Shown piece by piece: positions 1,774-33,200 of a stretch of DNA of 48,667 bases. A model generated the notes under the pieces. That model was not told the origin of the DNA, made no database searches, and worked only from the letters and a program-made list of their open reading frames with translations. How positions within the stretch are numbered: the stretch's first letter is position 1; each line of letters starts with the position of its first letter. The stretch is from Nitrospirota bacterium (GTDB lineage: Bacteria; Nitrospirota; Thermodesulfovibrionia; UBA6902), in the NCBI GenBank assembly GCA_016215115.1, contig JACRLN010000050.1, positions 1-48,667 of the forward strand, given 5' to 3'. The translations under genes and the position numbers were made by a program.

Positions 1774-2268
1774 TTAACTTCTCTTCCACTCTCCGCTTTT
1801 ACCGCCGCGTTTTTCCATCAGCATAATGTCAGAAATAACCATTGCCTTGTCCACAGCTTTACACATATCGTAAATTGTAAGGGCTGCAACCGAGACAGCG
1901 GTCAAGGCTTCCATTTCAATACCTGTCTGTCCTGTGCATTTGGCCCTTGCCTTTATTTCGACTTTATTCATTTTTTTAACAACATTAAAATCTACGTAAA
2001 CAGAGGCAAGATTCAATTGGTGGCATAATGGTATAAGCTCGCAAGTTTTCTTTGCAGCCAAAATGCCTGCAAGCCGGGCTGTTTCAAAGACATTGCCTTT
2101 TACGATATTATTGTCTGAAATAAGCCGCAGCGTTTCTTTCTTCATGTAAACAGCGCCTGTAGCGATTGCCTCTCTCCGGGTTGCCTGTTTATTGCTTATG
2201 TCAACCATTGTTGCCTTGCCTTTAGTATCAATATGCGTGAGTTTTGGTTTGCCTTTAGATTTTTGAAT
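1774..2268 (-). CDS. moaC: cyclic pyranopterin monophosphate synthase MoaC, apparent ATT start
   Basis: MoaC converts the 8-oxo-GTP-derived cyclic intermediate made by MoaA into cyclic pyranopterin monophosphate in molybdenum cofactor synthesis, in the cytoplasm. Family landmarks are the N-terminal LTHID and MVDIS, the central IPLCHQL, the EMEALTAVSVAALTIYDMCKA stretch and the terminal GGKSGEW. The first ATG is at 2208, but it would cut off LTHIDTKGKAT, which belongs to the family core. The frame stays open up to ATT at 2266-2268, and TGGAGG lies six bases upstream of that ATT. I therefore place the start there, giving about 164 residues, the usual MoaC length. ATT starts are rare but known, for example in infC. 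The stop of the preceding selenoprotein gene is one base upstream, so the two are translationally close. Confidence 0.9.
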   Translation of the reverse strand: MQKSKGKPKLTHIDTKGKATMVDISNKQATRREAIATGAVYMKKETLRLISDNNIVKGNVFETARLAGILAAKKTCELIPLCHQLNLASVYVDFNVVKKMNKVEIKARAKCTGQTGIEMEALTAVSVAALTIYDMCKAVDKAMVISDIMLMEKRGGKSGEWKRS

Positions 2269-2269
2269 G

Positions 2270-2707
2270 TTAAACCTCCAATATTTCCTCTAAGATTTCA
2301 GATGCGTCTTTAATATAATCAGGACAGCGTTCAATTACAATCATCCATGCATCAGGATTTAAATTTTTCTTTGAATCTATATCAAAACCTATAAGCTCTC
2401 TGCAAATGATGGAATCATTCCTCGTTTTAAATCTTTTTACAAATTTTTTAACAAGTTCGTAAGTCCTGGCCTTTGATGCTTTGTTTTTTGTATCTGTGGC
2501 TCCCTGCTTAAGGCCAATAATCATAAAAGCCCCGGTCACTGCACCACAGGTTTCACCCATAAGTCCTATTCCCCCGCCAAAAGGGCTTCCGACCTTCAGC
2601 GCTGTTTCATAATCCATTCCCAGCTTAACCCCGTAAGCTGCCAAAATCGCCTGTGCTCAGTTGAAACCTTTATTGAATAATGATATTGCATCCTCTATTT
2701 GAGTCAT
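2270..2707 (-). CDS. C-GCAxxG-C-C family selenoprotein, in-frame UGA read as Sec
   Basis: Small putative redox protein of the C-GCAxxG-C-C family. Without readthrough only a 124-residue frame is open from a TTG at 2644. Reading upstream through the TGA at 2657-2659 gives MTQIEDAISLFNKGFN-U-AQAILAAYG, then the rest of the domain: GETCGAVTGA, ICRELIGFD and ERCPDYIKDASEIL. In cysteine members the first conserved Cys sits in the GFNC-Q-A context, exactly where the TGA falls. The start is the ATG at 2705-2707, giving 145 residues; no strong Shine-Dalgarno is seen. A hairpin of bacterial SECIS type follows the UGA at the right distance. Some members of this family are known selenoproteins. Selenocysteine incorporation is inferred; SelA, SelB, SelC and SelD are not in the window. 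Confidence 0.85.
2621..2640 (-). promoter_or_regulatory. SECIS-like hairpin
   Basis: In the mRNA, CAGCUUA (2640-2634) pairs perfectly with UAAGCUG (2627-2621) around the six-base loop CGGGGU. The loop begins 23 bases after the UGA at 2657-2659 and has G as its second base. This matches the general rule for bacterial SECIS elements: a short stem, a guanine among the first two loop bases, and a loop roughly 16-37 bases after the UGA. Confidence 0.75.
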
Positions 2708-2853
2708 GTTTGTATAATACTTGCTGATAAAAAAAATTTCTATTTTTTTGTTATCTTCAATATCACTGCTGTCCAAAATATTTTGAAATACAAAGGGAGG
2801 CCCGCTTTATTAATACAAACGCATTAAATAAATTGACATTAACAATTAGTGTC

Positions 2854-2922
2854 GTCATTCCCGTGAAAACGGGAATCCAGTGTTTTTAAGGACTTCTGGA
2901 TACCCGCCTTCGCGGGTATGAC
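2854..2922. repeat. dispersed palindromic repeat, GTCATTCCCG family, copy 1
   Basis: The element starts GTCATTCCCG, has a first hairpin (CCCGTgaaaACGGG) and CGGGAATCCAG, and ends with CTGGATACCCG and a second hairpin CCCGCcttcGCGGG followed by TATGAC. The two ends are inverted copies of one another. Related elements occur at 20532-20599 and 42515-42598. It lies in the divergent gap between the selenoprotein gene and fabF. Confidence 0.75.
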
Positions 2923-3004
2923 AGCAAATGTAACATTATTAATTTCGTTTACAGTTTTTTATTAACCAATGAAACCAATTAAACTTGTGCTAATATAAAT
3001 TACT

Positions 3005-4294
3005 ATGAGAAGGGTTGTAATTACAGGCATAGGAGTTGTAACGCCTCTTGGCAATGATATCGAAACTACATTGAAAGGTTTAATTGGAAAACGCTCAGGC
3101 ATAGACCCCATTGAAAAATTTAATCCTTCAGGGATGACAAGCCGGATTGCAGGAGAATTAATAAATTTCTCTTCAGAAAATTATATATCCAAGAAAGATA
3201 TTCAGAGACTTGATCCGTTTATTCACTATGCAATTGCAGCCGCAGCAATGGCAGCAGAAGATGCAGGACTGATAAGTGCGGAAGTGCGGAAGTGCGGAGG
3301 TACAAAAGCCTCTGTAGGGGCAATTCATGAATTGCCCCTACAGCAAACTCTCCTAACCAATTCAGGCGTTATCATCGGCTCAAGCAGGGGAGGAATAACA
3401 AGCATGGGAAACGCCCTGCAAAAGCATCTTTTAAATGGCAAGCCCTTTTCTGCATATCTAATGCCTGCAACAACAATCAGCATGGCTCCATCTTATATCT
3501 CCATGAAATTCGGCATAAAAGGACCATCTATTGGTATATCAACAGCATGTGCCTCAGGGACTAATGCAATCGGTGAAGCTGCAAGGATGATTAGATATGG
3601 TGAAATCGCTCTTGCTTTTGCAGGAGGTTCTGAAGCGCCCATTTGCAGACTGGCTGTCGGAGGCTACGCAGCATCAGGCGCTCTTTCAAAAAGAAATCAG
3701 GAACCTCAAAAGGCAAGCAGACCTTTTGATAAAGACAGGGACGGTTTTGTAATTTCAGAGGGTGCAGGCATTCTTGTGCTTGAAGAGCTTGATCATGCGC
3801 TGAAAAGAAAAGCAAAGATTTATGCAGAACTTGCAGGATACGGAATATCTTCAGATGCTTTTCATCAGACAAAACCCGACAGCGAAGGCGAAGCTTTTGC
3901 AATTAATAATGCATTAAAAGATGCAAAAATTTCTGTTGAAGAAGTTGACTACATAAACGCTCATGCCACATCAACACCCCTTGGTGATCTTGCAGAGTCA
4001 AGAGCGATCAAAAAAGTATTTGGCAATAGAGTCAACGATATTTATGTAAGCTCATGCAAATCAATGTTAGGACATATGCTCGGCGCTGCCGGAGCTGTTG
4101 AAGCCGCGATAACTGCAATCTCAATAAATAAAGGTATAATCACTCCCACGATTAATCTTGAAGCCCCTGACCCGCGCTGCGACCTTAATCATGTAACCAC
4201 AACAATAAAAAAAGAGATAAACGCAGCCGTTACTAATTCCTTCGGCTTCGGCGGGATAAATGCAGTGCTGGTGATGAGAAAATTCATAGGCTAA
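3005..4294 (+). CDS. fabF: beta-ketoacyl-ACP synthase II FabF with an internal insertion
   Basis: Elongating condensing enzyme of fatty acid synthesis: it condenses malonyl-ACP with acyl-ACP in the cytoplasm. The thiolase-fold signatures are MRRVVITGIGVVTPLG at the N-terminus, the nucleophile Cys182 in STACASGTNA, the two catalytic histidines in NAHATSTPLGD (His320) and GHMLGAAGA (His357), and FGFGGIN near the end. At 429 residues it is slightly longer than usual. The excess is at about residues 94-119, between EDAGLISAE and NSGVIIGSS. There the DNA holds a triple 8-mer and a 30-bp perfect palindrome, inserted without breaking the frame. The start ATG at 3005 agrees with the family N-terminus, though the ribosome site is weak. 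No other fatty acid genes adjoin it. Confidence 0.93.
   Translation: MRRVVITGIGVVTPLGNDIETTLKGLIGKRSGIDPIEKFNPSGMTSRIAGELINFSSENYISKKDIQRLDPFIHYAIAAAAMAAEDAGLISAEVRKCGGTKASVGAIHELPLQQTLLTNSGVIIGSSRGGITSMGNALQKHLLNGKPFSAYLMPATTISMAPSYISMKFGIKGPSIGISTACASGTNAIGEAARMIRYGEIALAFAGGSEAPICRLAVGGYAASGALSKRNQEPQKASRPFDKDRDGFVISEGAGILVLEELDHALKRKAKIYAELAGYGISSDAFHQTKPDSEGEAFAINNALKDAKISVEEVDYINAHATSTPLGDLAESRAIKKVFGNRVNDIYVSSCKSMLGHMLGAAGAVEAAITAISINKGIITPTINLEAPDPRCDLNHVTTTIKKEINAAVTNSFGFGGINAVLVMRKFIG
3313..3342. repeat. 30-bp perfect palindrome inside fabF
   Basis: The left arm TGTAGGGGCAATTCA is followed directly by its exact reverse complement TGAATTGCCCCTACA. Just before it, at about 3275-3298, AGTGCGGA is repeated three times. 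A diverged relative with TGTA-GGGCG arms and a six-base loop lies at 45048-45077 between two tRNA genes, so this is a member of a dispersed family that landed inside a coding region. Confidence 0.8.
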
Positions 4295-5308: not shown

Positions 5309-6181
5309 TTAACAATTAAAGCAGCATGCCGGGTCTTTCTTATTAAATGTTTCCAGTAAAATATAAGTCCTGCCTCTGCAGCCGCCTTTACAATTATCAG
5401 CTATGGCGCATCCCCGGCATTCGTAAGGCGGAGCAATAATCTCTTTTCTTATTTGCCGTCTTTTAAATGAGGAGAAGATTTCTTTCAATGTTTCGGAGCA
5501 AAGATTGCCGAGCGTAACAGGCAGTAGCGGGCATGGTGTGACGTCCAGGTTATCAGCAATATAAATCATCGTGTAAGCCCCGTTGCAACCCATGCCTTCA
5601 AGATGCTCTCTTTTGAAAAAGACCTTCCATAAAAACGGGTCGTGAACCGTCAGCTTCAACAGTTCCAACGGTATCTCTTTTAAAGCATGTGCAAGCTGAT
5701 CGACTTCACTATGAGCAGGATAAAATATTTCTCCTTCTTCAGCCCTCTGAATCGGGAACTCAAGCTCCTTTATCCGGTTCTTAATACAAAATGCAATAAC
5801 TGCAGGGATTTCATGGAAGTTTTTTTGATTTAACAGGAAGGAAACATTAGCAATGATGTTATCCGAAACAGATAGAAGCTTCTCTATGGAATCCGTCTCA
5901 GTGAAAAGCGATATTCCGTGCTCTTGTAAATTCTTTATCATCGACCTTTCAATGGCGCCATGATTTATTGTTAACCTGATTTTAATATTCGATCTGGCCA
6001 ATTTATCGATAATATTGCTTACGGTCGTGCTTACAGGGTTTGAAAGGTCCCTGAGGTTAAGGACGAATATTTTGTTCTTTATCAACGCATCGCAGATAAT
6101 TGAAATGATAGCATCACTATACCCGGATGAATTTATGTCCCAGTAGACGATGAATGGGTCTATCAAATTATCAGGAGTCAT
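5309..6181 (-). CDS. GeoRSP-type SPASM-domain protein lacking the radical SAM cluster
   Basis: The 290-residue protein looks like a radical SAM/SPASM enzyme whose N-terminal part has no CxxxCxxC motif. The opening PFIVYWDINSSGYSD is followed by barrel-like segments with no cysteine triad. The C-terminal SPASM region is intact: Cys in GMGCNG, Cys in VTPCPLL, then C-x2-C-x5-C-x3-C in ECRGCAIADNCKGGC, and further Cys in DPACCFNC, enough for auxiliary Fe-S clusters. Its start lies inside the last codons of the radical SAM gene (11-bp overlap), so the two are co-translated and probably act as a pair. From memory, this three-part arrangement with PqqD is the GeoRSP system. Its role may be as a substrate-binding or electron-transfer partner. 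It is the last gene of the run. Confidence 0.8.
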   Translation of the reverse strand: MTPDNLIDPFIVYWDINSSGYSDAIISIICDALIKNKIFVLNLRDLSNPVSTTVSNIIDKLARSNIKIRLTINHGAIERSMIKNLQEHGISLFTETDSIEKLLSVSDNIIANVSFLLNQKNFHEIPAVIAFCIKNRIKELEFPIQRAEEGEIFYPAHSEVDQLAHALKEIPLELLKLTVHDPFLWKVFFKREHLEGMGCNGAYTMIYIADNLDVTPCPLLPVTLGNLCSETLKEIFSSFKRRQIRKEIIAPPYECRGCAIADNCKGGCRGRTYILLETFNKKDPACCFNC

Positions 6182-7184
6182 GACGCCAGCAGTGCGGATC
6201 AGGATTGTTCATATCACCCGTCAGGGCAAGTGTCCTTGCGGTGCAGCCACCCAGGCAGTCAGAATAATGGTCGCAACTTATACATTTCCCCTTAGCTGTT
6301 TTGCCCCTCATCATTTCAAGGACCGTGGAATTCTTCCACACATCAGCAAGGTCGTCAGTGCGCAGGTTTCCGATAACCATGGGAATAAACCCGCAGGGGG
6401 TGATGTCACCGTTTGATTTGATATTCAGGGACAGCTTTCCACACACGCTTCCCTTCACGAGGGTATCATTGCTTTTCTCTACAAGCTGAGAGATGATAGG
6501 GTCTTCAAGAGAAATACGGAGATTCTTTACCGACTTCTTCAACTCAATGGCCCGAATGTAGAAGTCCCGCCACTCCTCAGGAGTGAGGTCAAGTATGTCC
6601 TTGTTGGCTAAGCCGAGGCCCGAGCATTTGAAATTATGAAAGTTGATATTGGTCACCCCGGATGACAGCGCCATCTCAACCAGGCCGTCGACATCATCGA
6701 TATTTATTTTGCAGATGACCGAAGAAATAGAGGTTTCGATACCGGCCTCTTTCAGGTATGCCAACGCTGAGAGTGCCTTCTCATGGCTTCCTTTGATGCC
6801 CCTGAACTTGTCATGGACCCCCGGCTTGGGGCTGTCAATGCTGATGCCCACCTTTGAGAAACCGGCTACCTTGAGTTTCCGAGCGATGTCACGGTCAATC
6901 AGAAAGCCATTGCTGTTCATTGATACTGCAAAGCCCAGGTCCGCGCTGCGCCGGGCGATCTCCAGGAGGTCTTTTCTCAAAAGGGGTTCCCCTCCGCCGA
7001 AATTAACAGAAAACACTTTTGCCTTTGCAAGCTTATCAAGGACAACGCCAACAGTATCAATACTCAGCTCCTCTGTCGTATCGCTCCGGCTGTAACAATG
7101 GCTGCAGGCAAAATTACATATATTCGTGATCGCCCAGTTTACCGTCAGGGGCGAAGAGGGTATCAGATCATTCTTCATATACAA
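6171..7184 (-). CDS. radical SAM/SPASM peptide maturase, GeoRSP type
   Basis: Cytoplasmic radical S-adenosylmethionine enzyme. The [4Fe-4S] SAM cluster motif CNFACSHC is at residues 23-30. The SAM-binding GGGEPLLR is at about 63-70. The C-terminal SPASM domain has Cys in SVCGKLS and ITPCGFI, then CISCDHYSDCLGGC and DPHC. Such enzymes modify ribosomal peptides, for example PqqE and AnSME. The start is the TTG at 7184, six bases after AAGGAGG; the ATG at 7178 is a possible alternative. It overlaps the pqqD-like gene by 17 bp and the SPASM-only gene by 11 bp, so the cassette is one transcript. The substrate is not encoded next to it; two 20-residue genes elsewhere in the same block are candidates. 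Confidence 0.88.
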   Translation of the reverse strand: MYMKNDLIPSSPLTVNWAITNICNFACSHCYSRSDTTEELSIDTVGVVLDKLAKAKVFSVNFGGGEPLLRKDLLEIARRSADLGFAVSMNSNGFLIDRDIARKLKVAGFSKVGISIDSPKPGVHDKFRGIKGSHEKALSALAYLKEAGIETSISSVICKINIDDVDGLVEMALSSGVTNINFHNFKCSGLGLANKDILDLTPEEWRDFYIRAIELKKSVKNLRISLEDPIISQLVEKSNDTLVKGSVCGKLSLNIKSNGDITPCGFIPMVIGNLRTDDLADVWKNSTVLEMMRGKTAKGKCISCDHYSDCLGGCTARTLALTGDMNNPDPHCWRHDS

Positions 7185-7476
7185 GCCCTTCCTCCTTCAT
7201 ATTCTGCAGGAATTCGCCGGCATCTTTTCTCAGGACTTCCTCGTCAACATCAAACATTTCCCGCAGGGTGGAAACGATTTCCTGCGGTGTTTTTCCGTCA
7301 CACAATTTCCATATTTCGGTGCCGAGTACATTGAGAGAATGCATCTTGCCGGAATGAAGCAGGATCGAGGTGCCTATTTCAGCAACATCCTCTCCTGTGT
7401 CGAGCCCTTTATATGCCTGCTCTCTGAACTCGTCCTCTTCTCTCCACATTACGTCCGGGTTTCTGAATATCTTCAT
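7168..7476 (-). CDS. PqqD-family peptide chaperone (RRE), GeoRSP type
   Basis: This 102-residue protein has the PqqD fold: GTSILLHSGKMHSLNVLGTEIWKLCDG (beta strands followed by the first helix), then a helical tail with EIVSTLREMFDV and FLQNMKEEGLV. PqqD proteins bind the leader of a precursor peptide and deliver it to a radical SAM/SPASM enzyme. The start ATG at 7476 shares one base with the TGA of the cupin gene upstream, and its stop lies within the start of the radical SAM gene, so translation is coupled on both sides. Its presence shows that the neighbouring enzyme most likely acts on a ribosomal peptide. Confidence 0.85.
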   Translation of the reverse strand: MKIFRNPDVMWREEDEFREQAYKGLDTGEDVAEIGTSILLHSGKMHSLNVLGTEIWKLCDGKTPQEIVSTLREMFDVDEEVLRKDAGEFLQNMKEEGLVYEE

Positions 7477-7802
7477 CAGTCACCCACTGCCGTAAAGGAC
7501 GCAATGACCAGGTCTTCCTTTGATGCATTGCGTATCGCGTGATCAACAAGGGGCTGAACGATAACGATCTTACCGTTGCCGATCACCTGCATCTCGCCTG
7601 CTATCATGAATTCTCCCTGTCCCTCCATAACTATCCAGACATGGTTATCGTGATGGGTATGGGTGGTTATCTCCTGGCCGGGCTTCATGCAGATAAGGTT
7701 TATCTTTGTGTGCTTGTCAGACCATATTGTTTCTGTGTGCCGCTTTGTTTCATCAAATTTTTTAAGCTGGTTAATATCAAGTATCAAGGTCTTGTTCGAC
7801 AT
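7476..7802 (-). CDS. cupin-domain protein
   Basis: A single small cupin of 108 residues. The first cupin motif is recognisable as GQEITTHTHHDNHVWIVMEG, with His ligands spaced H-x-H and a His where many cupins have Glu. The second motif is near PLVDHAIRNAS. Cupins with this motif usually bind a divalent metal and act as a sensor, isomerase or dioxygenase; the substrate is unknown. The ATG at 7802 has TTGGAGGAC upstream and is preferred over the TTG four codons before it. The stop touches the pqqD start, so it belongs to the radical SAM cassette. A role in modifying or stabilising the peptide product is possible but unsupported. Confidence 0.75.
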   Translation of the reverse strand: MSNKTLILDINQLKKFDETKRHTETIWSDKHTKINLICMKPGQEITTHTHHDNHVWIVMEGQGEFMIAGEMQVIGNGKIVIVQPLVDHAIRNASKEDLVIASFTAVGD

Positions 7803-7873
7803 GATGTCCTCCAAATTTATTATTTATTCAAATCGTAAGCGATAGTACTTTTAGCATAGCTCATGTCAGGGAA

Positions 7874-20796: not shown

Positions 20797-23700
20797 TTAC
20801 TGGCACGTCCCGTCGCCTGTCTGATACGCCGGCGTTGCGACTGACGCCTCGTTGCTGTAAGGCGACTTGTCCGCGCCTCTAAACGCCCTGATCCTGTATG
20901 TGTATGATTTCTCGGGTTCGATGCTCCTGTTGTCCGTATACGTAATTACATTGGGAGCAAGCGTTGCTATCTTTACAAACGTGCCGTTCCATATCTTAAC
21001 TTCCACTTCAAAGCCGTCTTCATCGGCTGAGTTGTCAACCCAGTCAAGTTTTATCTTCATGGAATTAAGTGCCGTGGCTGTCAGGCTTGTCGGCTTAGCC
21101 GAGAAGGTCATATCACACGATGCACTGCTGTAATCGGTAGTCCACCCGCATGTCGCTGTCTTGTACGCCCTCACACGATAGCAATAGTTCACAGACGGCG
21201 TCAGGCCTGTATCGATGTAGGAGGTTGCGTTTGCGGCTGCTGTGGCGGTTTCAGTAAAGTTGTTGCACCCCGTGCCCTCGCACCTCTCGATCCTGAAACC
21301 AGTCTCGTCGGTCGTGTTATCCGTCCATGACAAGGTTGCACTTGTATCAGTGGCTGCTGTTGCCGCAAAGCTGCTTGGCGCGGCGATGGCTGATGTTGTC
21401 GCAGATGAAGTGCTGCTGTAACCTGAATTCCAGGCTGGCGATGTCTTGTAAGCCCTCACCCTGTAGCTGTAGCTTGTTGAGTTGCATACAGATGTGTCCT
21501 GATACGTTACTACGTTTGCCCCGACAGTATTTATCTGCGCAAAGTCGCTGCATTCCGTGCCTGCACACCTCTCTATCTTGAATCCCGTCTCGGTTGCCGT
21601 ATTGTCTGTCCATGCAAGATTTATCTGCGTGGTACTAACCGTTGTAGCCGTAAACCCCGAGGGCTCTGTAATGCTTGTTGTTACAGAAGGAGTATTACTT
21701 GCATTACTTGCATCATCCCACCCGCATGTCGCAGTCTTGTACGCCCTCACACGATATGTGTAAATCGTTTCCGGTGTAAGGCCGGTATTGTTGTATGTCG
21801 TTGCATTAGCCGCTGCAGTTGTTAACAGCGTAAAGTTACTGCACCCTGAACCTGTGCACCTCTCGATCCTGAATCCGGTCTCATCAGATGTTGTGTCTGT
21901 CCATGAAAGGTTTATCTGAACTTCAGAAATTCTCGTTGCAGTAAGCACAGACGCAACCGGAGTAGGTGTCACTGCCGTTGCTGTGCCGCTGTAATTTGAA
22001 TCCCATTCACCGGTCTTGTAAGCCCTCACCCTGTAGCTGTAGCTTGTTGAGTTGCATACAGATGTGTCCTGATACGTTACTACGTTTGCCCCGACAGTAT
22101 TTATCTGTGCAAATTCGCTGCATCCCGCGCCCGTACACCTCTCTATCTTGAATCCGGTCTCAGAGCCGCTATTGTCCGTCCATGAGAGGTTTATCTGTGT
22201 AGTGTTCGCTGCTGTTGCTGTAAACCCTGACGGAGGCACAACAAGGGTCGTCTCTGTCCTTACGTTACTGTATCCCGTTTCCCAACTGCATGTCGTTGTC
22301 TTGAACTCCTTTATGCGGTAGCTGTAGGTCTCTCCCAGTGTAAGTCCCGTATTACTGTATGTTGTCACTCCGGCGCCCGGCGATATCAGCGTTGTAAAGT
22401 CGCTGCAGCCGACGCCTATGCATCTTTCAATTACAAAGCCTGTCTCATCCGTTGCCGTGTCTGTCCATGAGAGGTTTACAAATGTATCTCCCACGGATGC
22501 CGTTGAAAGCACAGGGGCCGTTATCCCGGGAGTCGTAACAGGAGCTTCATTGCTCGGCTGTGTCTCCCATGTAATGTCGTATGTGAAGCAGGCTGATGTT
22601 TCTTCAGCTCCTGCGGATGCCGATGGCTCTGTGGCAGCGTATTTCTGAACGGTGATTAATTGTACGGTCGCCTGATGTGAGTTCTGTGTAAATGCCACTC
22701 GCATGGTTGCATCATTATAGGTTGACGTATCTTTTACCAGCGTCCAGCCTCCGTATGCCCCGCCCTTGATATAGTACTTTGCTCCTGTGGCCTTAAGCTC
22801 TATCTTCATCTCATAAGTCGTGCTTGCTGCATATGCCCCAGTTCCACTGGTATTATTCCCCTTTTCATAGGCAGTCAGGGCGTAATTGTTCCAGTAGAAT
22901 CCATGCACAAGCTGTGTATAGCTTGCACTTGCGGTCTGGTTCAGTTCCCATCCCATCATAAGGAGATTGTTCCCCGGGGTGTCGGCCGCAATGGTGATCT
23001 TTGAATATATCATCTTATCAGCTGCCCTTGTGATCGTCTGGTTTGAAATAAGCGCCTTGTCCCAGGTATCGCTCACGTCATTTAGTATAAGACTGTTATT
23101 CTGGGCTATGGAATTATTCGGGTCTATCTCCGTCCATTTGGTTGTGCTGATTGTAGTTCCTGCGAAGTTATCAAAGAATTCAAATACAAGCGTTCCGTCG
23201 CTTGTGCCCGTAGCGTTCGCGTTGCCGTAATACATGTAAATTGTATTGTTGCCCCCTGTCTTGACCCAGATTGTTGCCGAGATACCGTCGGTCTTGCTCT
23301 CTATCCAGTGCGGAAGCTCTGAGAACGCCGTAGTGTCGTAAAACCGGATGTCGTCAAAGTCAGCCTGCATGTCCGCATCATATGTAACCGTCACCTTTGT
23401 CTGAAAGTCAGACTGAAAGTTCATTATCGTAAGCGGCACACGCCTTGTCCAGCAGCCGCCGCCCCCGCCTGAAAGCCCTTCATTTATCGCCTTGACGCGG
23501 TATCTGTAATCCATTGTGTTGCACACGGATGTATCGGAATATGAGGTAGTGTTGCGTGAAAGCTTTGTAAGCTCCGCAAAATTACTGCACCCGGCACCTG
23601 TACACCTCTCTATCTTAAACCCTGTCTCAGACCCTGTGTTGTCTGTCCATCCAAGATTGACCTGGGTTGTATTTGCAGCCGTTGCGGTCAGTCCGCTCGG

Positions 23701-26700
23701 AGAAGGCACCGTTGTTGTAGTGCCTGAAGCAGTGGCGCTGTAGGCTGTATTCCAGCCGCCGTTGCACGTTGCGTCTTTGTATGCTCTCACACGATAATTG
23801 TATGTGGTCGAAGGAGTAAGTCCCGTGTTGTTATATGTAATTATGCCTGCGCCTACTGTCGTTATCTCCGCAAAATCGCTGCATCCTGCACCAGCGCACC
23901 TCTCTATCTTAAAACCGGTCTCATCCGATGTGTTGTCTGTCCAAGTTAAAGTCAGTTTCACTTCCGTTGCGCCGGAAGTCGCAAGGCTGCCGGGCGCTGA
24001 AGGCGTGCCTGTTGTTCTCGATACTGTGCCGCTGTAGCCTGAATCCCATTCACCCGTCTTGTAAGCCCTTATCCGGTAACTGTAGCTTGTAGCACTACAC
24101 ACTGATGTGTCTTGATAAGTTGTCGTGTTTGCCCCTACAGTTGTAATCTCCACAAAATTGCTGCATCCAGATCCCGAACACCTTTCGATCTTAAACCCTG
24201 TCTCGCTTGCAGTGTTGTCCGCCCACGATAGATTGATCTGCGTAGAGTTTGGAGAGCTCGATGTCAGGCCTGAAGGCGCTGAAATGCTTGTCGTTGCCGC
24301 AGATGTCCCACTCGTGGTCTCCCATGAACAGGTTGCGGTCTTGTACGCCCTCACACGATATGTGTAAGTCGTTGCTGATGTAAGACCGGTGTTGTTGTAT
24401 GTTGTTGTGCTTGCAGCAACTGATGCTATTTCCGCAAAGTCGCTGCATCCGGCCCCTGTACACCTGTCCACCGCGAAGCCCGTCTCATCCGACGTTGTGT
24501 CCGTCCATGAGAGGTTGATCTGCACCTCTGAACTCCTTGTTGCCGTAAAACTTCCGGGCGCTGACGGATTTGCAGTTGTTGCTGATGCTGTCCCGCTGTA
24601 CGCGCTCTCCCACTGTCCTGTTTTGTATGCTACTACCCGATAACTGTATGCGGTTGCTTTACATACCGAGATGTCCTGATATGTAATGGTATTTGCCGCC
24701 ACCGTTGTCAGTTCTGTAAAATTGCTGCACCCTGCGCCGCTGCACCTCTCTATCCTGAAGCCTTCCTCTGCACTGGTGTTATCAGTCCATGACAGATTGA
24801 CCTGCGTCGTGTTTGCCGTTGTTGCGGAAAGCCCGCCTGGCGCTAAAGGGGTTAGGGTGGTCGTGACCTTCTCCGTCCACACCGATGACTCCCCGTTGTT
24901 CCTGAACGCCTGCACCCTGTAACAGTACTGGCTCCCTATATTAAGAAGCGTATCGGAATATGACGTGGAGTTTGCAGCTGCCGTGTTTATCAGCACCCAC
25001 GGATTCCCTGAATTACAGGCCCCGACCTTTCTCTCTACATAATAGCCGTCTTCAACCCCTGAGTTGTCAGACCATGCAAGCCCCACTGTCGTGTACGACG
25101 GCGCTGCGTTAAGCGGCACCGGCGGCTGTAGCTGATATCCGCTCACTTTAAGCACTATATAATCTGCGTTACCGTTTGCATTGGTTGTATGACCTCCTAT
25201 GAATGCCTCCCCCATGTAATTGACTGTAATCGAGGATGCCTCATCATTACCGTTTGCCACTCCGTTATAGGTCATCCCTCCGCTGAAGTCCCCTTCTGCG
25301 TTATACCATACTGAAAGTACATCTGCATTGCTACCGCCGTCTGTATACCCCGCAACATGTATATTGCCTGAACGGTCCATTGCCGCTGCTGCCGCAAAGT
25401 CATCACTTGAGGGCCTGTCTAATGTCCTTTGCCATAATACATTCCCGTTAGTGTCGTACCTGATGACGTGAAAATCATGATTGCCATATGAGGTAAGTAC
25501 TGTGCCTGCAACAACCACTTCACCTGTCACTGAGTCAACTTTGACGCTCATCGCCTCATCATTCCCGTTTACAACTCCGTTATAACTGCGCTCCCATAAC
25601 CTCGCTCCTGTTGCACCGTTGTACTTGATAGTGTAGAAGTCTTCATTGCCGCTTGCAGTAACCGAGATGCCTGTAACATAAACATTTCCGGATGAATCTA
25701 CCGCAAGTGAACGCGTAAAGTCATCGCCCGCACCTTCCCCATTAAACACGTCCGTCCAAATAACCGCGCCTGTGCTTCCGTTATACTTCCTTGTGAAATA
25801 GTTATAGTACAGACCGACCTTTGTATATCCCGTCACAAATATATTTCCCGATGAATCAAAGGCCACTGCTGAAGGATAATCATTGCTGCCTCCGTCATAC
25901 GGCGTTGCGGCCCAGGAGCGTGTACCGTTATTCAGATACTTTACTACATATATGTCATCATTCCAGCTCGCGTTCTTCCCGTATCCAACTACAACGTAGT
26001 TATTATTGCCGTCACTCGATACGTCCACTACGCTTGACCGGTCGTCATCTCCGGCCGGCCCATTGTACTGATCTGCCCAGTCTTCAGGAGCTCCTGTGGA
26101 AGGATACCTGAGCGTATAGATATCATTGGTGTTTTCGGCGCCTCCTCCAAACATGTAAGAATACCCTGACACCAAAATGCCATTATTGCCGTCTGCCACT
26201 ATGGTCTCTGCAACATCCATATCGTTTTGGTCGCTGTCATACCTGGCGCCCCATATCGCCGCTCCGGTCTGCCTGTTTATCTTTACCGTGTAATAATCAA
26301 ACTGGCCTGCTGTTGAATAGCTGAAGCCTGTGGCTACAGGATTGTTGTCCGGTCCTGCTGCGATGGCTGTAACATAATCATCTCCGTTATCGCTCCCGTT
26401 ATATATGAAGGTCCATGCCGGTGATGTGTAGGTAACCACGGTTGTCACCGCATAATCTTCATTGCTGTAATGCGAGTCGCCCTGCGACGCGTTGTATGCC
26501 CTCACCCTGTAAAAGTATTTTGTGTCGGAAGTGAGTCCTGTATCGTTGTACGCTGTAACGTTAGCGCCAACAGTAGTAATTTGTGCATACACGCCGAGGT
26601 CTCCTATCTTCCGCTCGATCCTGAACCCGTCTTCCGTGGAAGAGTTGTCCGCCCACAAGAGATTTATCTGTGTTGCCGACGCTGTTTCCGCATTAAGCGC

Positions 26701-28113
26701 CGTCGGCGGATTCAAAAGTCCGGAGTCATATTTAATTGCATGGTAGTCATGATCCAATGAGCCGGACGTCCACATGTCTGTCCATCCTGCAACTATCACT
26801 TCGCCTGACGATGTTATGCCGATACCTGCCGGCCTGTCGTCTTTGTCAGCGCTGCCGTTATAAGTTTTCTGCCAGAGAAGGGCCCCGCCCGCCTTTGTGT
26901 ATTTGATGGTCATATAGTCGTAGTTGTTTCCTGCTTCATTATATGTGTCGCCGGTTACGAACACGTCTCCGGAATTATCCACCGCGATGCCCACAGCCCT
27001 GTCGCTGTTGCTGCCTGAAGAATTGTGTGTATGGCTCCATTGATTTGCGCCCGTGCTTCCGTTATACCTTGCGGTAAAAAAATCATTCGTTCCGTCCGCA
27101 GTGAATGTATAGCCCGTGAAGTACACGTCTCCTGCGGAGTCAATGAGCATGTCCGCCGGTTCGTCCGCATATCCGCCGTTGTAGGTCTGCTCCCAGAGTA
27201 TTGCGCCTGCCGCGCTGCCGTATTTTACAAGGTAGATGTCTTTGTTTACGCCGTTGAATGTAACTCCCGCAACTACGACATTGCCTGATGAATCCATGCG
27301 CACTGTCTTGCCCTTGTCGTCGCCTGAGACGGACTTTCTCTTTTCCCAGAGCAAATCGCCGCTGAAATTATATTTAACTGTGAGTATGTCAAAATCAGAC
27401 GTGCCGTTCTGGGATTCACCTGTTACTGCGATTCCATCAACTCCCGCTGTGATTGATGCGGCCCTGTCATGGCCGTCTGCGCTGCCATTGTATGTCTTCT
27501 GCCATATAGGCGTCCCGTCAGGGTTGGGGCCGTCGGGCCCGTATTTAAGTATGATGTAGTCGTCTTTTGCGTTAGCGGCCTGAACGCTGCCGCCAATGTA
27601 AATGTTGTTAAGGCTGTCTACCGCGACAGAGACCCCGTAATCATTGCCGTTGACTGTTGAGTTATAGGTATGCTGCCATAAAACTGCACCGGTAGATGAT
27701 TCGTACTTGATTGTGTGAATATCGTAATTTGTGCCATTCCAGGCATACCCTGTAACGATCACATTATTGCCTGAGTCCAGGGTTAGGGCAATGGCAACTG
27801 CATGATCGTCTCCTCCTGTCTTGTCATATGTCCTGCTCCATAAGATCCCTGTGCCGTCTGACTTGTATTTGGCCGTGTAGTAATCATCCGAGCCGGATTC
27901 ATCTGATGCGCCTGTTATTATCACGCAGCCGGATGAATCAATGACCATTGCTGACGCCTCCTGCTTGCCGGTCTTCGCATCGCCGTACTGCCAGATGACA
28001 TCGCCGCCGGTGGCATACGCCGAATGAGTGAACGATAAAGCAAAAGTGAATAAGAACAGCAATAATATCTTGAATTTTAATTTTTCAATCTTAAACATGT
28101 TTTTGTCTTTCAT
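20797..28113 (-). CDS. giant secreted beta-propeller/fibronectin III/DUF2341 protein
   Basis: A protein of 2,438 residues, with the start chosen at the ATG 28113 (MKDKNMFKIEKLKF) because the cytochrome gene stops at 28131. The signal peptide is LLLFLFTFALSFTHSAYA. Two sets of SBBP-type propeller repeats (D-GN-V-VTGY, YDYYTIKY) cover roughly residues 45-470 and 580-1000, with one fibronectin III domain between. Twelve more fibronectin III domains follow, most with a Cys pair as IERC-GAGCSNF. A DUF2341 domain (WTRRVPLTIMN to MYYGNANATGTSDG) interrupts them near residues 1500-1700. The last domain lacks the Cys pair. The likely role is an extracellular fibre or adhesin. It directly follows the multiheme cytochrome gene, suggesting joint export. 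Confidence 0.85.
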   Translation of the reverse strand: MKDKNMFKIEKLKFKILLLFLFTFALSFTHSAYATGGDVIWQYGDAKTGKQEASAMVIDSSGCVIITGASDESGSDDYYTAKYKSDGTGILWSRTYDKTGGDDHAVAIALTLDSGNNVIVTGYAWNGTNYDIHTIKYESSTGAVLWQHTYNSTVNGNDYGVSVAVDSLNNIYIGGSVQAANAKDDYIILKYGPDGPNPDGTPIWQKTYNGSADGHDRAASITAGVDGIAVTGESQNGTSDFDILTVKYNFSGDLLWEKRKSVSGDDKGKTVRMDSSGNVVVAGVTFNGVNKDIYLVKYGSAAGAILWEQTYNGGYADEPADMLIDSAGDVYFTGYTFTADGTNDFFTARYNGSTGANQWSHTHNSSGSNSDRAVGIAVDNSGDVFVTGDTYNEAGNNYDYMTIKYTKAGGALLWQKTYNGSADKDDRPAGIGITSSGEVIVAGWTDMWTSGSLDHDYHAIKYDSGLLNPPTALNAETASATQINLLWADNSSTEDGFRIERKIGDLGVYAQITTVGANVTAYNDTGLTSDTKYFYRVRAYNASQGDSHYSNEDYAVTTVVTYTSPAWTFIYNGSDNGDDYVTAIAAGPDNNPVATGFSYSTAGQFDYYTVKINRQTGAAIWGARYDSDQNDMDVAETIVADGNNGILVSGYSYMFGGGAENTNDIYTLRYPSTGAPEDWADQYNGPAGDDDRSSVVDVSSDGNNNYVVVGYGKNASWNDDIYVVKYLNNGTRSWAATPYDGGSNDYPSAVAFDSSGNIFVTGYTKVGLYYNYFTRKYNGSTGAVIWTDVFNGEGAGDDFTRSLAVDSSGNVYVTGISVTASGNEDFYTIKYNGATGARLWERSYNGVVNGNDEAMSVKVDSVTGEVVVAGTVLTSYGNHDFHVIRYDTNGNVLWQRTLDRPSSDDFAAAAAMDRSGNIHVAGYTDGGSNADVLSVWYNAEGDFSGGMTYNGVANGNDEASSITVNYMGEAFIGGHTTNANGNADYIVLKVSGYQLQPPVPLNAAPSYTTVGLAWSDNSGVEDGYYVERKVGACNSGNPWVLINTAAANSTSYSDTLLNIGSQYCYRVQAFRNNGESSVWTEKVTTTLTPLAPGGLSATTANTTQVNLSWTDNTSAEEGFRIERCSGAGCSNFTELTTVAANTITYQDISVCKATAYSYRVVAYKTGQWESAYSGTASATTANPSAPGSFTATRSSEVQINLSWTDTTSDETGFAVDRCTGAGCSDFAEIASVAASTTTYNNTGLTSATTYTYRVRAYKTATCSWETTSGTSAATTSISAPSGLTSSSPNSTQINLSWADNTASETGFKIERCSGSGCSNFVEITTVGANTTTYQDTSVCSATSYSYRIRAYKTGEWDSGYSGTVSRTTGTPSAPGSLATSGATEVKLTLTWTDNTSDETGFKIERCAGAGCSDFAEITTVGAGIITYNNTGLTPSTTYNYRVRAYKDATCNGGWNTAYSATASGTTTTVPSPSGLTATAANTTQVNLGWTDNTGSETGFKIERCTGAGCSNFAELTKLSRNTTSYSDTSVCNTMDYRYRVKAINEGLSGGGGGCWTRRVPLTIMNFQSDFQTKVTVTYDADMQADFDDIRFYDTTAFSELPHWIESKTDGISATIWVKTGGNNTIYMYYGNANATGTSDGTLVFEFFDNFAGTTISTTKWTEIDPNNSIAQNNSLILNDVSDTWDKALISNQTITRAADKMIYSKITIAADTPGNNLLMMGWELNQTASASYTQLVHGFYWNNYALTAYEKGNNTSGTGAYAASTTYEMKIELKATGAKYYIKGGAYGGWTLVKDTSTYNDATMRVAFTQNSHQATVQLITVQKYAATEPSASAGAEETSACFTYDITWETQPSNEAPVTTPGITAPVLSTASVGDTFVNLSWTDTATDETGFVIERCIGVGCSDFTTLISPGAGVTTYSNTGLTLGETYSYRIKEFKTTTCSWETGYSNVRTETTLVVPPSGFTATAANTTQINLSWTDNSGSETGFKIERCTGAGCSEFAQINTVGANVVTYQDTSVCNSTSYSYRVRAYKTGEWDSNYSGTATAVTPTPVASVLTATRISEVQINLSWTDTTSDETGFRIERCTGSGCSNFTLLTTAAANATTYNNTGLTPETIYTYRVRAYKTATCGWDDASNASNTPSVTTSITEPSGFTATTVSTTQINLAWTDNTATETGFKIERCAGTECSDFAQINTVGANVVTYQDTSVCNSTSYSYRVRAYKTSPAWNSGYSSTSSATTSAIAAPSSFAATAATDTSATLSWTDNTTDETGFRIERCEGTGCNNFTETATAAANATSYIDTGLTPSVNYCYRVRAYKTATCGWTTDYSSASCDMTFSAKPTSLTATALNSMKIKLDWVDNSADEDGFEVEVKIWNGTFVKIATLAPNVITYTDNRSIEPEKSYTYRIRAFRGADKSPYSNEASVATPAYQTGDGTCQ
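21443..22107. repeat. 95-bp identical segments in two fibronectin III repeats
   Basis: Positions 21443-21537 and 22013-22107 are identical over 95 bases, 570 bp apart in the giant gene. They encode the same TVGANVVTYQDTSVCNSTSYSYRVRAYKT region of two different domains. Flanking codons differ at many third positions, so the identity reflects recent gene conversion or duplication rather than protein constraint. Confidence 0.75.
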
Positions 28114-28130
28114 TTCACTGATCCCTGTTT

Positions 28131-31100
28131 TTACCACTGCGTCACGTTGTTCCATTTCTGGTTATCAGGCCAGTTGCTGGATCCGTTGGCGGTAGCTGCG
28201 CCGTGACATATTGCAGTACTGTATTGACTGAAACCATTATTCCACCAGCCGTACGGGAACCTGCCGTATCTGTTCTCATAAGTCCAACTAACATCATACG
28301 CAAATGGCTGTCCTCCGGATGCCACCCTTCCTCTGTGCTTATAGTCCAGACAGTTCGTCTGCATCAGACGCGGAAGTCCTGAATTGTGCGGTTGGTGGCA
28401 TTTTGAGCATGGATATGTATGCTCCCCGTTGGTACCCCACCCTTTGACTGTCTCGTGTATTCTGTCCATCGTCTTGAATGCCGTGTTCTTGTTCGCGCCG
28501 TCAGTCAACCTGTTCTTCGGATGGCATATCATGCAAAGACCGGCAAACTTGCTGTCATCTTCAGTTATCCTGCCGTATGTGCTGTCGGGGACATTTGCCT
28601 GGCTGCTTAAGTCAACCGTGTTAAAAGTATTTCTGTCGGTCTTCCATGCGCCTGTGGGCTGTGGGTTTGCCTTCTGGCCGTAGGGTCTCACGTAAGAACC
28701 ACTCCATGAGTTGTAGTAATTATAAAAACCGCTCTTGCCGCTATAGCCGTCCTTGTCCATTGGCGTAGCATCTTCCTTGTAAGGCGATGTCAGCCATGTG
28801 CCTTTAAGCATTGGCAAAGCATACTGCTGGTTATCTCCAAGGGTCGGACTTACTCCGTGAGGGTCATGGCAAGGGGTACATAATCCATTGATCGTGCCCA
28901 TCGCTTCGTCACCTGTGCCGGGTGTCCCGTCAAGTCCTTTCAGACTGGAAGACGCCTTAAAGTGTCCGCCTACTATTGTCGCTTTGCTTGCCCTGTAGGA
29001 ATATCTTGCAGTGGAACCCTTTGTCCCCTGCCCGAAACGCGGTGTATCTTTATATCCAATAATAGGCGCGGTCGCCCCGAAGGTTGATCCGTAGCCCCAG
29101 GGCTTTGTACCTGACGTCTGCGTCTCATGACAGTCAAAGCATTGTCCTGCTCCGGCATTATATGGATTCACACCTGAGGTATTTTCCTGAGCTTTATATG
29201 TCATGCTATAGCCGCCCTTGCCTGCCTGGGTCTCTTTCATATTAGCCCCGTTATAAGTGCCGTTGAATGACTTGTAACTTGATGTAACTCCCGCGACTTT
29301 TGAGCCGTGAGAACTGTGACAGTCAAAACACTGAATGTTCTGGCCTCCGTTTCTGGTGTTGGGAATGGTTCCGTCCAGACCTGTTGCCGCATCCCACCCG
29401 CCCTGGTTGGCTGTTGCGTTTCCATGCGCTGAGAATGCCTTTGTTATATCTTTCTTTGCCGCATTTGTTATGGAAGTATATTTGCCCCACGTAGCCGTGC
29501 CTGTCTGTGAATAACGGGCTCCAATGCTCGTCCTGTCCCACGCATACTGCGCCGGGGTCTTGCAGTCGCCATTGTCAGGGTCTGCGATGTTGAACGGCTG
29601 CGTCTCTTTGTTCTGGTCGCTGTGACAACCGAGGCAATGCTGGGTCGCTTTCGATACCTCAGTCCTCTCGTCGGCAGTGCCGATCTTATTGGCGGTGAAC
29701 GTCACTGCCGTTACGCCCGATTCGTAAGTGGAAGGTCTTGTCTCTGGTCCCCAGATTACAAGATCAACTGCGGCATTTTTTACAGATGTGTGAGTCTTGT
29801 AATTGTATCCCGAATGGTGATCCGTATTGATGAGTCCTATGTCGGTAGCCTCCCAATGGCAGGCGTAGCAGTGTTTGTTGGTAACTTTATCACCCTGCAC
29901 ATGATGCGAATTCGCCCTGAACTGACCCATAATGTCCATTCTGCCGTTAATCGTCCCGTTATGGCATTTTGTACAATCTCTCGGTAATCCAAAGCCCGTG
30001 TGTCTTGGAATCGGCTTATTTTGATGACAGGTATTGCATTCCTTGCCTGAGGCGTGGCTGTCAGTGAACCTGTGTTCATGGCACGTCGTGCAGATTCTGC
30101 CTGAATTGTGCCCGTCTCCGTAATCAAAGCGGTAATGCTGCCCTGTCTCTGTATGGCATACATTGCAGATGCCGTTGTACGGAGCGGATGTCTTTGCATA
30201 ATCAAGACCGCTCTGCTTTCTCGTGAAAGCAACGTCACGCCGCGTTACCGGAATACCATAAGATCCGTCAGTTTCGGTAGCAACCTTGTTCTGAATCATG
30301 TATATGTTCCCGTCGCCGTGCGGGTCATGACAGTCCCAGCAGAATTTTCCGCCTTTCCATACGCCGTTATTCTGGTATGCCGCATAATGCTTGTAACCGA
30401 AATGTACTGACGTTGCCTTTGAAACAGTTGCCTTGATAAAACCTGTGCCGGGGTTATAACCAAGCTTGTATTGCTCTCCCGCATGGCACTGGTTGCATTT
30501 TCCATTGCTGTCGTCATCATGGCATTTAAGACATACACCCATCATCAGGTACTGGTTTTTTATGTCAGCCTTTTGTCCTGGCGTCCACAAGCCGGCTCCG
30601 GTCTTGTGCCTCTGTGCATCTGTTGAGTGACAGGAAGCTACGCAGGATGTTTGACCGTTTGTAAATCCTGTATGATCCTGTGAAAAAGGAGGATTTGCTA
30701 TGGCTGCAAGCTGAGGGGCAAGGGACTCGGTTGTATTGTGACAGCCAAGGCACTCACTGTCCAGTCCCTGCATATGACAGTAGACGCATTCCTTTTCAAA
30801 GCGGCCGGCGAATTGCTGGTGCTGTTTTAACCGGAACGGGTTTGATGAATCATTATGGAGAATAGTGTTGTCATGGCAGTACCAGCAGGGATTTCCAGGG
30901 AAGTTTGCCGGAGGATTACCTGAAGTGTAATTGCCCGCAGATGTCGGACGTCCATGACCGGTGGTTTCCCACTCGGTCAAATTTATCTTTGCTCGTGTGC
31001 CGTTGAATTTTGTGAAATCATCCACGTCTGCTCCTGATGTGCCGTGACAACTCAGACAGATGACCAGATTATTGACCGAGTCGCCCCACTGTGGATCAGA

Positions 31101-33200
31101 CCCGGTGTGGCAGGCCGTGTTGGAACATGTCTTGCTTACCTGATTATATGTGCCACCATTTTTGAAGGCGACATCTTTGACCTTGTTTACGTGATAGACC
31201 GGATTGATGTGATTGACCTCATCCATGCTGCCGGAAGGCACGCCGTTTCCATGACACTCGGTACATGAGCCGTTGACGATTGTATTGTCATGGCATTTCT
31301 CACAGGGGAAGTCCGTTAGCAAATGCCTGACGTGGGAATTTGCCTGCTGTGTCCCAGGGCCTGTATTAGCATACATCGGCATCGCCGCCTTCCATTCATC
31401 ACCGGCAGGCCATGCGGTCCTGCCGTCCGTATGACAGTTGGAACATTCGCCTTTTTCATGTCCGTGACAACTGTTGCACTTAGTATGTCCCTCGTCCCAT
31501 GCAAAGGGCCTGACTTGCGGGTTGACCGTTGTTCCGTCGCTGTGGCAGTAGACATTGCTGCATACTTTGGTCCCGGAGTTGAAAGTCGGCGAAGGATTGC
31601 CGGGGATATTCCACTTTGAGGCCATCGCCACATCTTTGGTTTCATTTAAATGTTTACTGTAATCTTTCAGATTGCTCGATGTATCGACCGTAGCGTCATG
31701 GCAGTAATAGCACGGGAACTTCCTCACCCACTGACTGCTGACAAGGCGATCGTGCCCGTTGGAACGCATCTCCAGCGTCTCAATGCCCGTCCTTCCATTG
31801 TGGCATGAATCGCACTGCATTGAATTTGCTGAAGTCCACTGAGGCAGGACATTCGGCGCTCCGCCTCTCGCGTCGCTGTGGCAGTATGTGCTTGTGCACG
31901 ATTTGGTCCCGCTGTCGAATGAACCGCCTTTTGAAAAGATGAGGTCTTTTGTATTGTTGGCGTGGTAAGTATCATTCTTGATTGATGAACTGCCCGATGC
32001 GGTCTCGTAATGACATTTTTCACATGCAAACCCGTACGTGGATTCATTGGTGTGCTTACGGTGCTTGCCGCTCAGATCGCTGAGGGAGCCGCCAGTGTCA
32101 TGGCATGAGGTGCATGTCACCGATCCGTCCCACTGCGGGCTGGTGTTTTTCCCTCCTCCCCATACAGTGCCGTCCGGGAGCTTGCCGTGACAGTAAATGT
32201 TGCTGCAGGTCCTGCTGCCTGAGTTTGTGACGATGGTGTTAGGTTCGCTGCTGTTGTAAGTTGCCGTTGATTGGCCGTTATATGCTCCTCCCTGATAAGC
32301 GCCGCCGAAGAGATAAAACCCTATATCTATACGATGGCTGACGCTATCAGGCATGCTGTAAGCGGTATGACAATAATTACATGGATAACCTTTACCTACG
32401 ACATGCTTCTGATGTCTACCGGCTGTTGTTGAGCCCGTGGCGCCTGCACCCTGAACAAGATCGGATGTAATTAAAGGCGCGCCGGTTGATCCTGACATTC
32501 CGTGGCATCCATTGCATGCGCCGCCGAATGGTATGAAACCGTCCTTATGATTATGACAGGTAACGCAATTTGCGGCATTATTATGACTCTTGCTGGACTG
32601 GGCGCTTGTATTGTATCTGTGATAAGAAGTCACTGTATGGCAAACCTCGCAGATCCTCGTTGACGACGTATGATTTTCGGAATCATCACCCATTACATAA
32701 GGGGCGCTGCCCGAAGTTCCGCCGAGATACCTGAAATCAACGGTATCCCCAGGCAGGCTTCCGCTTGGCGCTGAAATATTAGGCCTTATAAGGTATATAT
32801 TTTTTGTATCGTGTGGCGTATGACAAATAGCACATGTAAACTCGCCGTATTGGCCTCCGGCAACGCCCCATCCGCTACCACCCCATTTTCCAGACGTCCA
32901 TACACCTGAGTTGGCCTCACATGATGTTTTAGTCTTATATGTGTCATCAGAGCATCTGCCAGCGATTTCAGAGCTGTGTATCTTCAGCGCTTTGTCCCAA
33001 TTGGTCTGGTTATATCCTGTCTCGCCGGGAGATGGCGTATTACTGTTCGTTCTGTGACAGCCTTCGCAGATATCGCCGGGAGAACGGCGAAGAAGATTGC
33101 CGTTTCCGGATGAAGAAGCATATGCTACTGTGGACGCCAATAACAGAATGAATCCAGCAACCAATGATATCCTCATTATTCTTGTCTGATGATCTTTCAT
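28131..33200 (-). CDS. giant multiheme c-type cytochrome with CxxCH and CX4CH sites
   Basis: A 1,689-residue secreted cytochrome. The signal peptide is near MRISLVAGFILLLASTVAYA. By my count it has 32 CxxCH motifs, four CX4CH motifs (CSNIYCH, CTSTYCH, CSNVYCH, CSNTACH) and one CX3CH (CVASCH), about 37 possible heme sites. The pairing of CX4CH with CxxCH is the pattern of the Geobacter-type CxxxxCH/CxxCH repeat. The last 110 residues carry no CxxCH after CSKCHQPH. Such proteins pass electrons across the outer surface to minerals or partner cells. It is the first gene of the long minus-strand run, ahead of the giant fibronectin protein. The ribosome site is weak, and a short upstream frame precedes it. 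Confidence 0.92.
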   Translation of the reverse strand: MKDHQTRIMRISLVAGFILLLASTVAYASSSGNGNLLRRSPGDICEGCHRTNSNTPSPGETGYNQTNWDKALKIHSSEIAGRCSDDTYKTKTSCEANSGVWTSGKWGGSGWGVAGGQYGEFTCAICHTPHDTKNIYLIRPNISAPSGSLPGDTVDFRYLGGTSGSAPYVMGDDSENHTSSTRICEVCHTVTSYHRYNTSAQSSKSHNNAANCVTCHNHKDGFIPFGGACNGCHGMSGSTGAPLITSDLVQGAGATGSTTAGRHQKHVVGKGYPCNYCHTAYSMPDSVSHRIDIGFYLFGGAYQGGAYNGQSTATYNSSEPNTIVTNSGSRTCSNIYCHGKLPDGTVWGGGKNTSPQWDGSVTCTSCHDTGGSLSDLSGKHRKHTNESTYGFACEKCHYETASGSSSIKNDTYHANNTKDLIFSKGGSFDSGTKSCTSTYCHSDARGGAPNVLPQWTSANSMQCDSCHNGRTGIETLEMRSNGHDRLVSSQWVRKFPCYYCHDATVDTSSNLKDYSKHLNETKDVAMASKWNIPGNPSPTFNSGTKVCSNVYCHSDGTTVNPQVRPFAWDEGHTKCNSCHGHEKGECSNCHTDGRTAWPAGDEWKAAMPMYANTGPGTQQANSHVRHLLTDFPCEKCHDNTIVNGSCTECHGNGVPSGSMDEVNHINPVYHVNKVKDVAFKNGGTYNQVSKTCSNTACHTGSDPQWGDSVNNLVICLSCHGTSGADVDDFTKFNGTRAKINLTEWETTGHGRPTSAGNYTSGNPPANFPGNPCWYCHDNTILHNDSSNPFRLKQHQQFAGRFEKECVYCHMQGLDSECLGCHNTTESLAPQLAAIANPPFSQDHTGFTNGQTSCVASCHSTDAQRHKTGAGLWTPGQKADIKNQYLMMGVCLKCHDDDSNGKCNQCHAGEQYKLGYNPGTGFIKATVSKATSVHFGYKHYAAYQNNGVWKGGKFCWDCHDPHGDGNIYMIQNKVATETDGSYGIPVTRRDVAFTRKQSGLDYAKTSAPYNGICNVCHTETGQHYRFDYGDGHNSGRICTTCHEHRFTDSHASGKECNTCHQNKPIPRHTGFGLPRDCTKCHNGTINGRMDIMGQFRANSHHVQGDKVTNKHCYACHWEATDIGLINTDHHSGYNYKTHTSVKNAAVDLVIWGPETRPSTYESGVTAVTFTANKIGTADERTEVSKATQHCLGCHSDQNKETQPFNIADPDNGDCKTPAQYAWDRTSIGARYSQTGTATWGKYTSITNAAKKDITKAFSAHGNATANQGGWDAATGLDGTIPNTRNGGQNIQCFDCHSSHGSKVAGVTSSYKSFNGTYNGANMKETQAGKGGYSMTYKAQENTSGVNPYNAGAGQCFDCHETQTSGTKPWGYGSTFGATAPIIGYKDTPRFGQGTKGSTARYSYRASKATIVGGHFKASSSLKGLDGTPGTGDEAMGTINGLCTPCHDPHGVSPTLGDNQQYALPMLKGTWLTSPYKEDATPMDKDGYSGKSGFYNYYNSWSGSYVRPYGQKANPQPTGAWKTDRNTFNTVDLSSQANVPDSTYGRITEDDSKFAGLCMICHPKNRLTDGANKNTAFKTMDRIHETVKGWGTNGEHTYPCSKCHQPHNSGLPRLMQTNCLDYKHRGRVASGGQPFAYDVSWTYENRYGRFPYGWWNNGFSQYSTAICHGAATANGSSNWPDNQKWNNVTQW

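Follow-up and report, generated by a model that had tools for sequence, protein, structure and literature searches.

A predicted C-GCAxxG-C-C family selenoprotein with an in-frame UGA and a SECIS-type hairpin, encoded next to moaC in a Nitrospirota genome

The locus and its gene

The window analysed here, 48,667 nucleotides in length, is the whole of contig C31 of a 57-contig draft genome (2.82 Mb, 99.4% complete), whose closest named relatives are mostly MAGs of the Nitrospirota / Thermodesulfovibrionia, many of them of groundwater origin. The gene under study lies on the minus strand between an ATG at 2707 and a TAA at 2270-2272, and the TGA at 2657-2659 is the sole in-frame stop between the two, so that the frame is open on both sides of the TGA as the first-pass annotation of this DNA had described it. 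That annotation had also expected a gene caller to start at a TTG beyond the TGA; a table-11 ORF search of the window does so, beginning the frame at TTG 2644 and returning 124 aa. Gene calling of this style would drop the first 21 residues, selenocysteine (Sec) included, throughout a bacterial family.

Table 1. Features at the selenoprotein locus (window coordinates)
Feature	Position	Strand	Basis
Predicted C_GCAxxG_C_C family selenoprotein gene	2273..2707	minus	145 codons, Sec codon 17; PF09719, TIGR01909; frame kept in relatives
In-frame UGA, predicted to be read as selenocysteine	2657..2659	minus	TGA or Cys at the same codon in relatives; selA/B/C/D in genome
Candidate SECIS hairpin	2621..2640	minus	stem CAGCUUA/UAAGCUG, loop CGGGGU; bSECIS rules; pairing in Sec homologues
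Promoter-like TAGAAA-17-TATTAT	2714..2742	minus	similar sequence equally far from ATG in nearly all relatives
moaC, downstream neighbour	1774..2208	minus	PF01967, E 4e-57
fabF-like ketoacyl-ACP synthase gene, divergent neighbour	3005..4294	plus	TIGR03150, 504 bits

When the TGA is read through, the 145-residue product covers the full PF09719 profile (E 2e-35, 121.9 bits against a Pfam cut-off of 27) and scores 82.2 bits against TIGR01909, 'C-GCAxxG-C-C family (seleno)protein' (NCBIfam cut-off 47.4). The positions that give the family its name (C ... (G)CAxxG ... C ... C) are present as Sec17, C54-G-A-V-T-G, C102 and C128, and are invariant or almost so across the homologue alignment (A1). On comparative evidence, set out below, we are nearly certain that the window gene encodes a PF09719/TIGR01909 protein with Sec at the first conserved position. 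The product is probably a small bacterial protein of the cytosol with a likely redox activity.

The promoter-like element ends 6 nt ahead of the ATG, and nearly all relatives have a closely similar TAGAAAATTTT...TATTATA equally far from theirs, which suggests that the selenoprotein mRNA is leaderless. In 28 of the 29 loci fetched from relatives moaC adjoins the gene, and the divergent fabF lies upstream in most of them. The order fabF / C_GCAxxG_C_C / moaC (window 1774-4294) is thus kept in most relatives and links the gene by position to molybdopterin synthesis. The moaC adjacency may point to molybdopterin enzymes, as a correlation only, and the conserved neighbourhood provides a first handle on a family without known function.

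Two features of the flanking sequence were seen in passing. The start of moaC is probably upstream of the ATG at 2208 (window 2208-2269, minus strand), where an LTHIDTKGKAT frame resembles the N-terminus of the family; the NF006870 model matches moaC only from position 17 on, and no ATG was seen upstream in 2208-2269. Between the selenoprotein gene and fabF (window 2857-2930) lies an inverted-repeat element of the GGATTCCCGTTTTCACGGGAATGACG type, and a seemingly related element is found near position 3330 of locus L055 on contig C8 of the same genome.

Selenocysteine and cysteine in homologues

Of 150 relatives searched, 46 have the gene, and the site corresponding to codon 17 was readable in 28 loci from the same taxonomic order. 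At one and the same codon 22 of these 28 loci carry TGA and the other 6 carry TGT or TGC; the TGA loci come from distinct genomes, with protein identities down to 47%. The TGA thus stands, as had been proposed, at the first conserved Cys of the family, with Cys codons aligned to it in the cysteine homologues. In a second collection of 80 loci from named genomes, whose organisms are partly shared with the first set, about 21 have Sec (a count of 20, to which L192 was added by eye) and the remaining 59 or so have Cys, with nothing else occurring at this position. About three to five switches between Sec and Cys can be placed on the tree, the support of which is weak. Read in this way, the loci form a clean set of natural exchanges between Sec and Cys, and the candidate SECIS hairpin described below is kept or decays to match.

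Among 61 relatives searched for selB, 59 have a match, which exceeds the curated cut-off in 54. Under strict filters, tRNA-Sec was not picked up in a minority of the relatives with the TGA form, several of these genomes being fragmented or incomplete MAGs; each of the relatives concerned has a selB match, partial in some. TAG 'stops' in two relatives were considered as possible UAG recoding, a reading that was rejected on the one that was read, L051, where the TAG ends the gene.

Translation across the UGA

Codons 2-16 of the Sec loci evolve under protein-level constraint (median dN/dS 0.29, with 0.20 for codons 18-32 and 0.87 for the 48 nt preceding the ATG), which indicates that the region before the UGA is coding and that translation continues across the TGA in the same frame. 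Residues F11, G14 and Q19, which flank the Sec position, are invariant. Initiation past the UGA at TTG 2644, which would yield a shorter C_GCAxxG_C_C protein without the first of the conserved residues, is what a mechanical ORF search returns, but it is highly improbable: it would leave the constraint on codons 2-16 and the invariance of F11 and G14 without a cause, nearly all relatives share the position of the ATG, which the conserved promoter-like element precedes by 6 nt, and the Cys homologues continue through the codon-17 position.

The probable SECIS hairpin

Downstream of the UGA the RNA can form a hairpin (CAGCUUA-CGGGGU-UAAGCUG) with a stem of 7 bp, a 6-nt loop and an MFE of -8.7 kcal/mol. 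The stem begins 16 nt and the loop 23 nt past the UGA, so that the stem, the loop and the customary spacing are exactly those given in the first-pass annotation. Published rules for bacterial SECIS elements specify a loop of 3-9 nt, a stem of 4-16 bp, a G within the first two loop positions, a distance of 16-37 nt from the UGA and an MFE of -7.5 or lower (PMC13188914). The window hairpin satisfies these rules, its G being at loop position 2.

As a single sequence the fold is unremarkable (z = -0.46 for 45 nt and -0.06 for 76 nt), and it is comparison that raises the hairpin above chance, since 22 Sec homologues share both the stem and its location. In a scan of 7-bp stems with loops of 4-9 and offsets of 3-329 (1962 possible positions), this stem ranks 1 of 1962 in the set of 22 Sec homologues, with 96% of cells paired (mean 38%, sd 11%). 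Among the Cys loci the same stem is 67% paired and ranks 26, and paired cells fall to 14-56% when the pairing register is shifted. Covariation proper is weak and not significant, with one compensatory cell and values inside the shuffled range, because the bases of the stem are also constrained by protein coding, and several relatives have an MFE fold other than this hairpin. The codons in or beside the stem are fixed, with GCT for Ala24 in 22/22, GAG for Glu28 in 12/12 and AAC for Asn16 in 22/22; codon choice here is, judging from these alignments, more fixed than the protein requires. An Rfam search at the site gave no match; Rfam is not known to include a general model for bacterial SECIS elements. 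Overall, the identification of the hairpin as a SECIS element can be made with high, though not complete, confidence.

Selenocysteine machinery and the tRNASec-like gene

All four of the genes whose presence the first-pass annotation had asked about are found in the genome. A profile search located selA (627 bits) and selB (342 bits) as adjacent genes on contig C51, and selC, encoding a tRNA-Sec with anticodon UCA, is on contig C53. There are two copies of selD, with one in-frame TGA apiece, and two of the three high-scoring formate dehydrogenase alpha genes likewise have one in-frame TGA each; in the contig C52 gene, the one for which this was confirmed, the TGA is the catalytic VUH position. 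Because selA, selB, selC and selD are accompanied by TGA codons in selD and formate dehydrogenase genes, the genome very probably uses Sec.

The genome also holds a tRNASec-like gene with anticodon GCA and U73 (L055 on contig C8, 4547-4638), and downstream of it come a split-Soret-like gene, a formate dehydrogenase gene and a selD. A class of tRNA-Cys termed selC*, with an 8/4 acceptor/T arrangement, has been published from anaerobes including Nitrospirae. The sequence of the contig C8 gene fits a selC*-type tRNA-Cys, with a predicted acceptor/T fold of 8/5 as against the described 8/4. Similar tRNASec-like sequences occur in 53 of the 150 relatives, part of them being short matches or matches to canonical tRNA-Sec, and most of the best 30 loci of this search were called tRNA-Cys(GCA). 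The idea that this GCA tRNA inserts Sec at Cys codons was dropped, since U73 and GCA match the published selC* tRNA-Cys. In the formate dehydrogenase gene of contig C8 the catalytic codon is UGU (6667-6669), followed by a hairpin of -23.8 kcal/mol, and the contig C52 counterpart has UGA. The likeness of this hairpin to a SECIS element may come from protein coding, because it overlaps strongly conserved protein sequence.

That some selC* tRNAs have a UCA anticodon, that they are present in Nitrospirae and that this genome carries a tRNASec-like tRNA-Cys of its own could be taken to favour a rival to Sec at codon 17 that turns on a selC*-type tRNA-Cys. Such a reading is very unlikely here: the genome's selC*-like tRNA has the anticodon GCA rather than UCA, among the tRNAs found, UCA occurs only in a canonical tRNA-Sec, which has G73, and SelA, SelB and SelD are all encoded. 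A pseudogene or sequencing error, in which the TGA arose lately by nonsense mutation or is a TGC/TGT that was miscalled, takes only a single base change in a draft genome, and it retains next to no probability and may be regarded as already refuted, because the same TGA recurs in 22 loci of different genomes, with an intact frame under constraint to either side of it, and because the genome has the Sec machinery.

For selenocysteine insertion at codon 17, comparison of homologues supports the following course. Transcription probably starts at or beside the ATG at 2707, and a ribosome reaching the UGA would meet SelB with Sec-tRNA(UCA) bound to the hairpin 16 nt downstream, so that Sec would be inserted instead of termination and the 145-residue protein be completed. 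The Sec17/Cys54/Cys102/Cys128 site would then work in an anaerobic redox reaction, possibly one connected with the molybdopterin pathway, given moaC next door, and Sec would be expected to give the site a lower pKa and a lower redox potential.

Relation to known proteins and possible function

The selenoprotein status of the family is already on record: two reviews count both form 1 and form 2 of the 'C-GCAxxG-C-C family protein' (PF09719) among the selenoproteins (PMC9312934, PMC13188914), and the title of NCBIfam TIGR01909 itself includes (seleno)protein. The window protein shares the full-length domain of this family, with Sec for the first conserved Cys, and differs in its occurrence beside moaC within a Nitrospirota (Thermodesulfovibrionia-like) group; the gene adds a member from a little-studied lineage. 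The HUGP/GUXX-star fusion selenoprotein (NF045501) is a Sec-bearing relative that matches window residues 5-133, but the window protein scores 55.5 bits where membership takes 325, and with 145 aa against 236 model positions it lacks the fused second part.

A more distant relative is the split-Soret cytochrome c (PDB 1h21; NF047622), in which the Gly-rich stretch before CGAxxGA and, reading the alignments by eye, four Cys positions correspond, whereas the window protein has neither the haem-binding CxxCH motif nor a signal peptide. Over the GG...CGAxxGA stretch the A1 profile has a weak match to 1h21 (E 0.36), and two members of A1 match NF047622 weakly. The split-Soret homologue encoded on contig C8 (E 1e-34 to 1h21) also exceeds the PF09719 cut-off; its direct profile comparison with the window family is weak. 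The split-Soret protein has been reported to contain an Fe-S-type site of four Cys residues.

The AlphaFold model of the window protein is all helical (mean pLDDT 84.5, pTM 0.83). A Foldseek search with this model gave no match at E < 0.001, and the best VIA-align match, ambiguous for an all-helical model, is the L-cysteine desulfidase CyuA (Z 5.2, rmsd 3.8 A, 110 aligned), an enzyme in which a [4Fe-4S] cluster is bound via conserved Cys and which serves here as a lead only; the link to split-Soret cytochrome c is the better supported of the two. An SDH_alpha protein search for a comparison profile returned one locus only.

The conserved Cys positions and the distant link to split-Soret cytochrome c together make it likely that a single redox or Fe-S site is made up of Sec17, Cys54, Cys102 and Cys128. 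With that link, and the four-Cys site reported for the cytochrome, an Fe-S or metal role of these residues is as plausible as a dithiol-type role. A further reading, in which the Sec form marks a moaC-linked Nitrospirota branch and the four-residue Sec/Cys site serves molybdopterin or formate metabolism, is speculative and rather improbable; if the related split-Soret cytochrome is taken as a guide, the site would then possibly be an Fe-S cluster with a selenolate ligand.

Other features of the window

Three further regions of the window were noted. A 475-aa protein (322-1749) had no family match in profile searches. Adjacent ORFs at 20797-33200 encode a 2452-aa protein with fn3/beta-propeller repeats and a 1689-aa multihaem cytochrome-like protein (Cytochrome_C7, GSu_C4xC__C2xCH), a pair that possibly serves extracellular electron transfer. 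A cluster at 5309-7814, encoding a radical SAM/SPASM protein, a second SPASM protein, a PqqD-like protein and a cupin, resembles peptide-modification operons.
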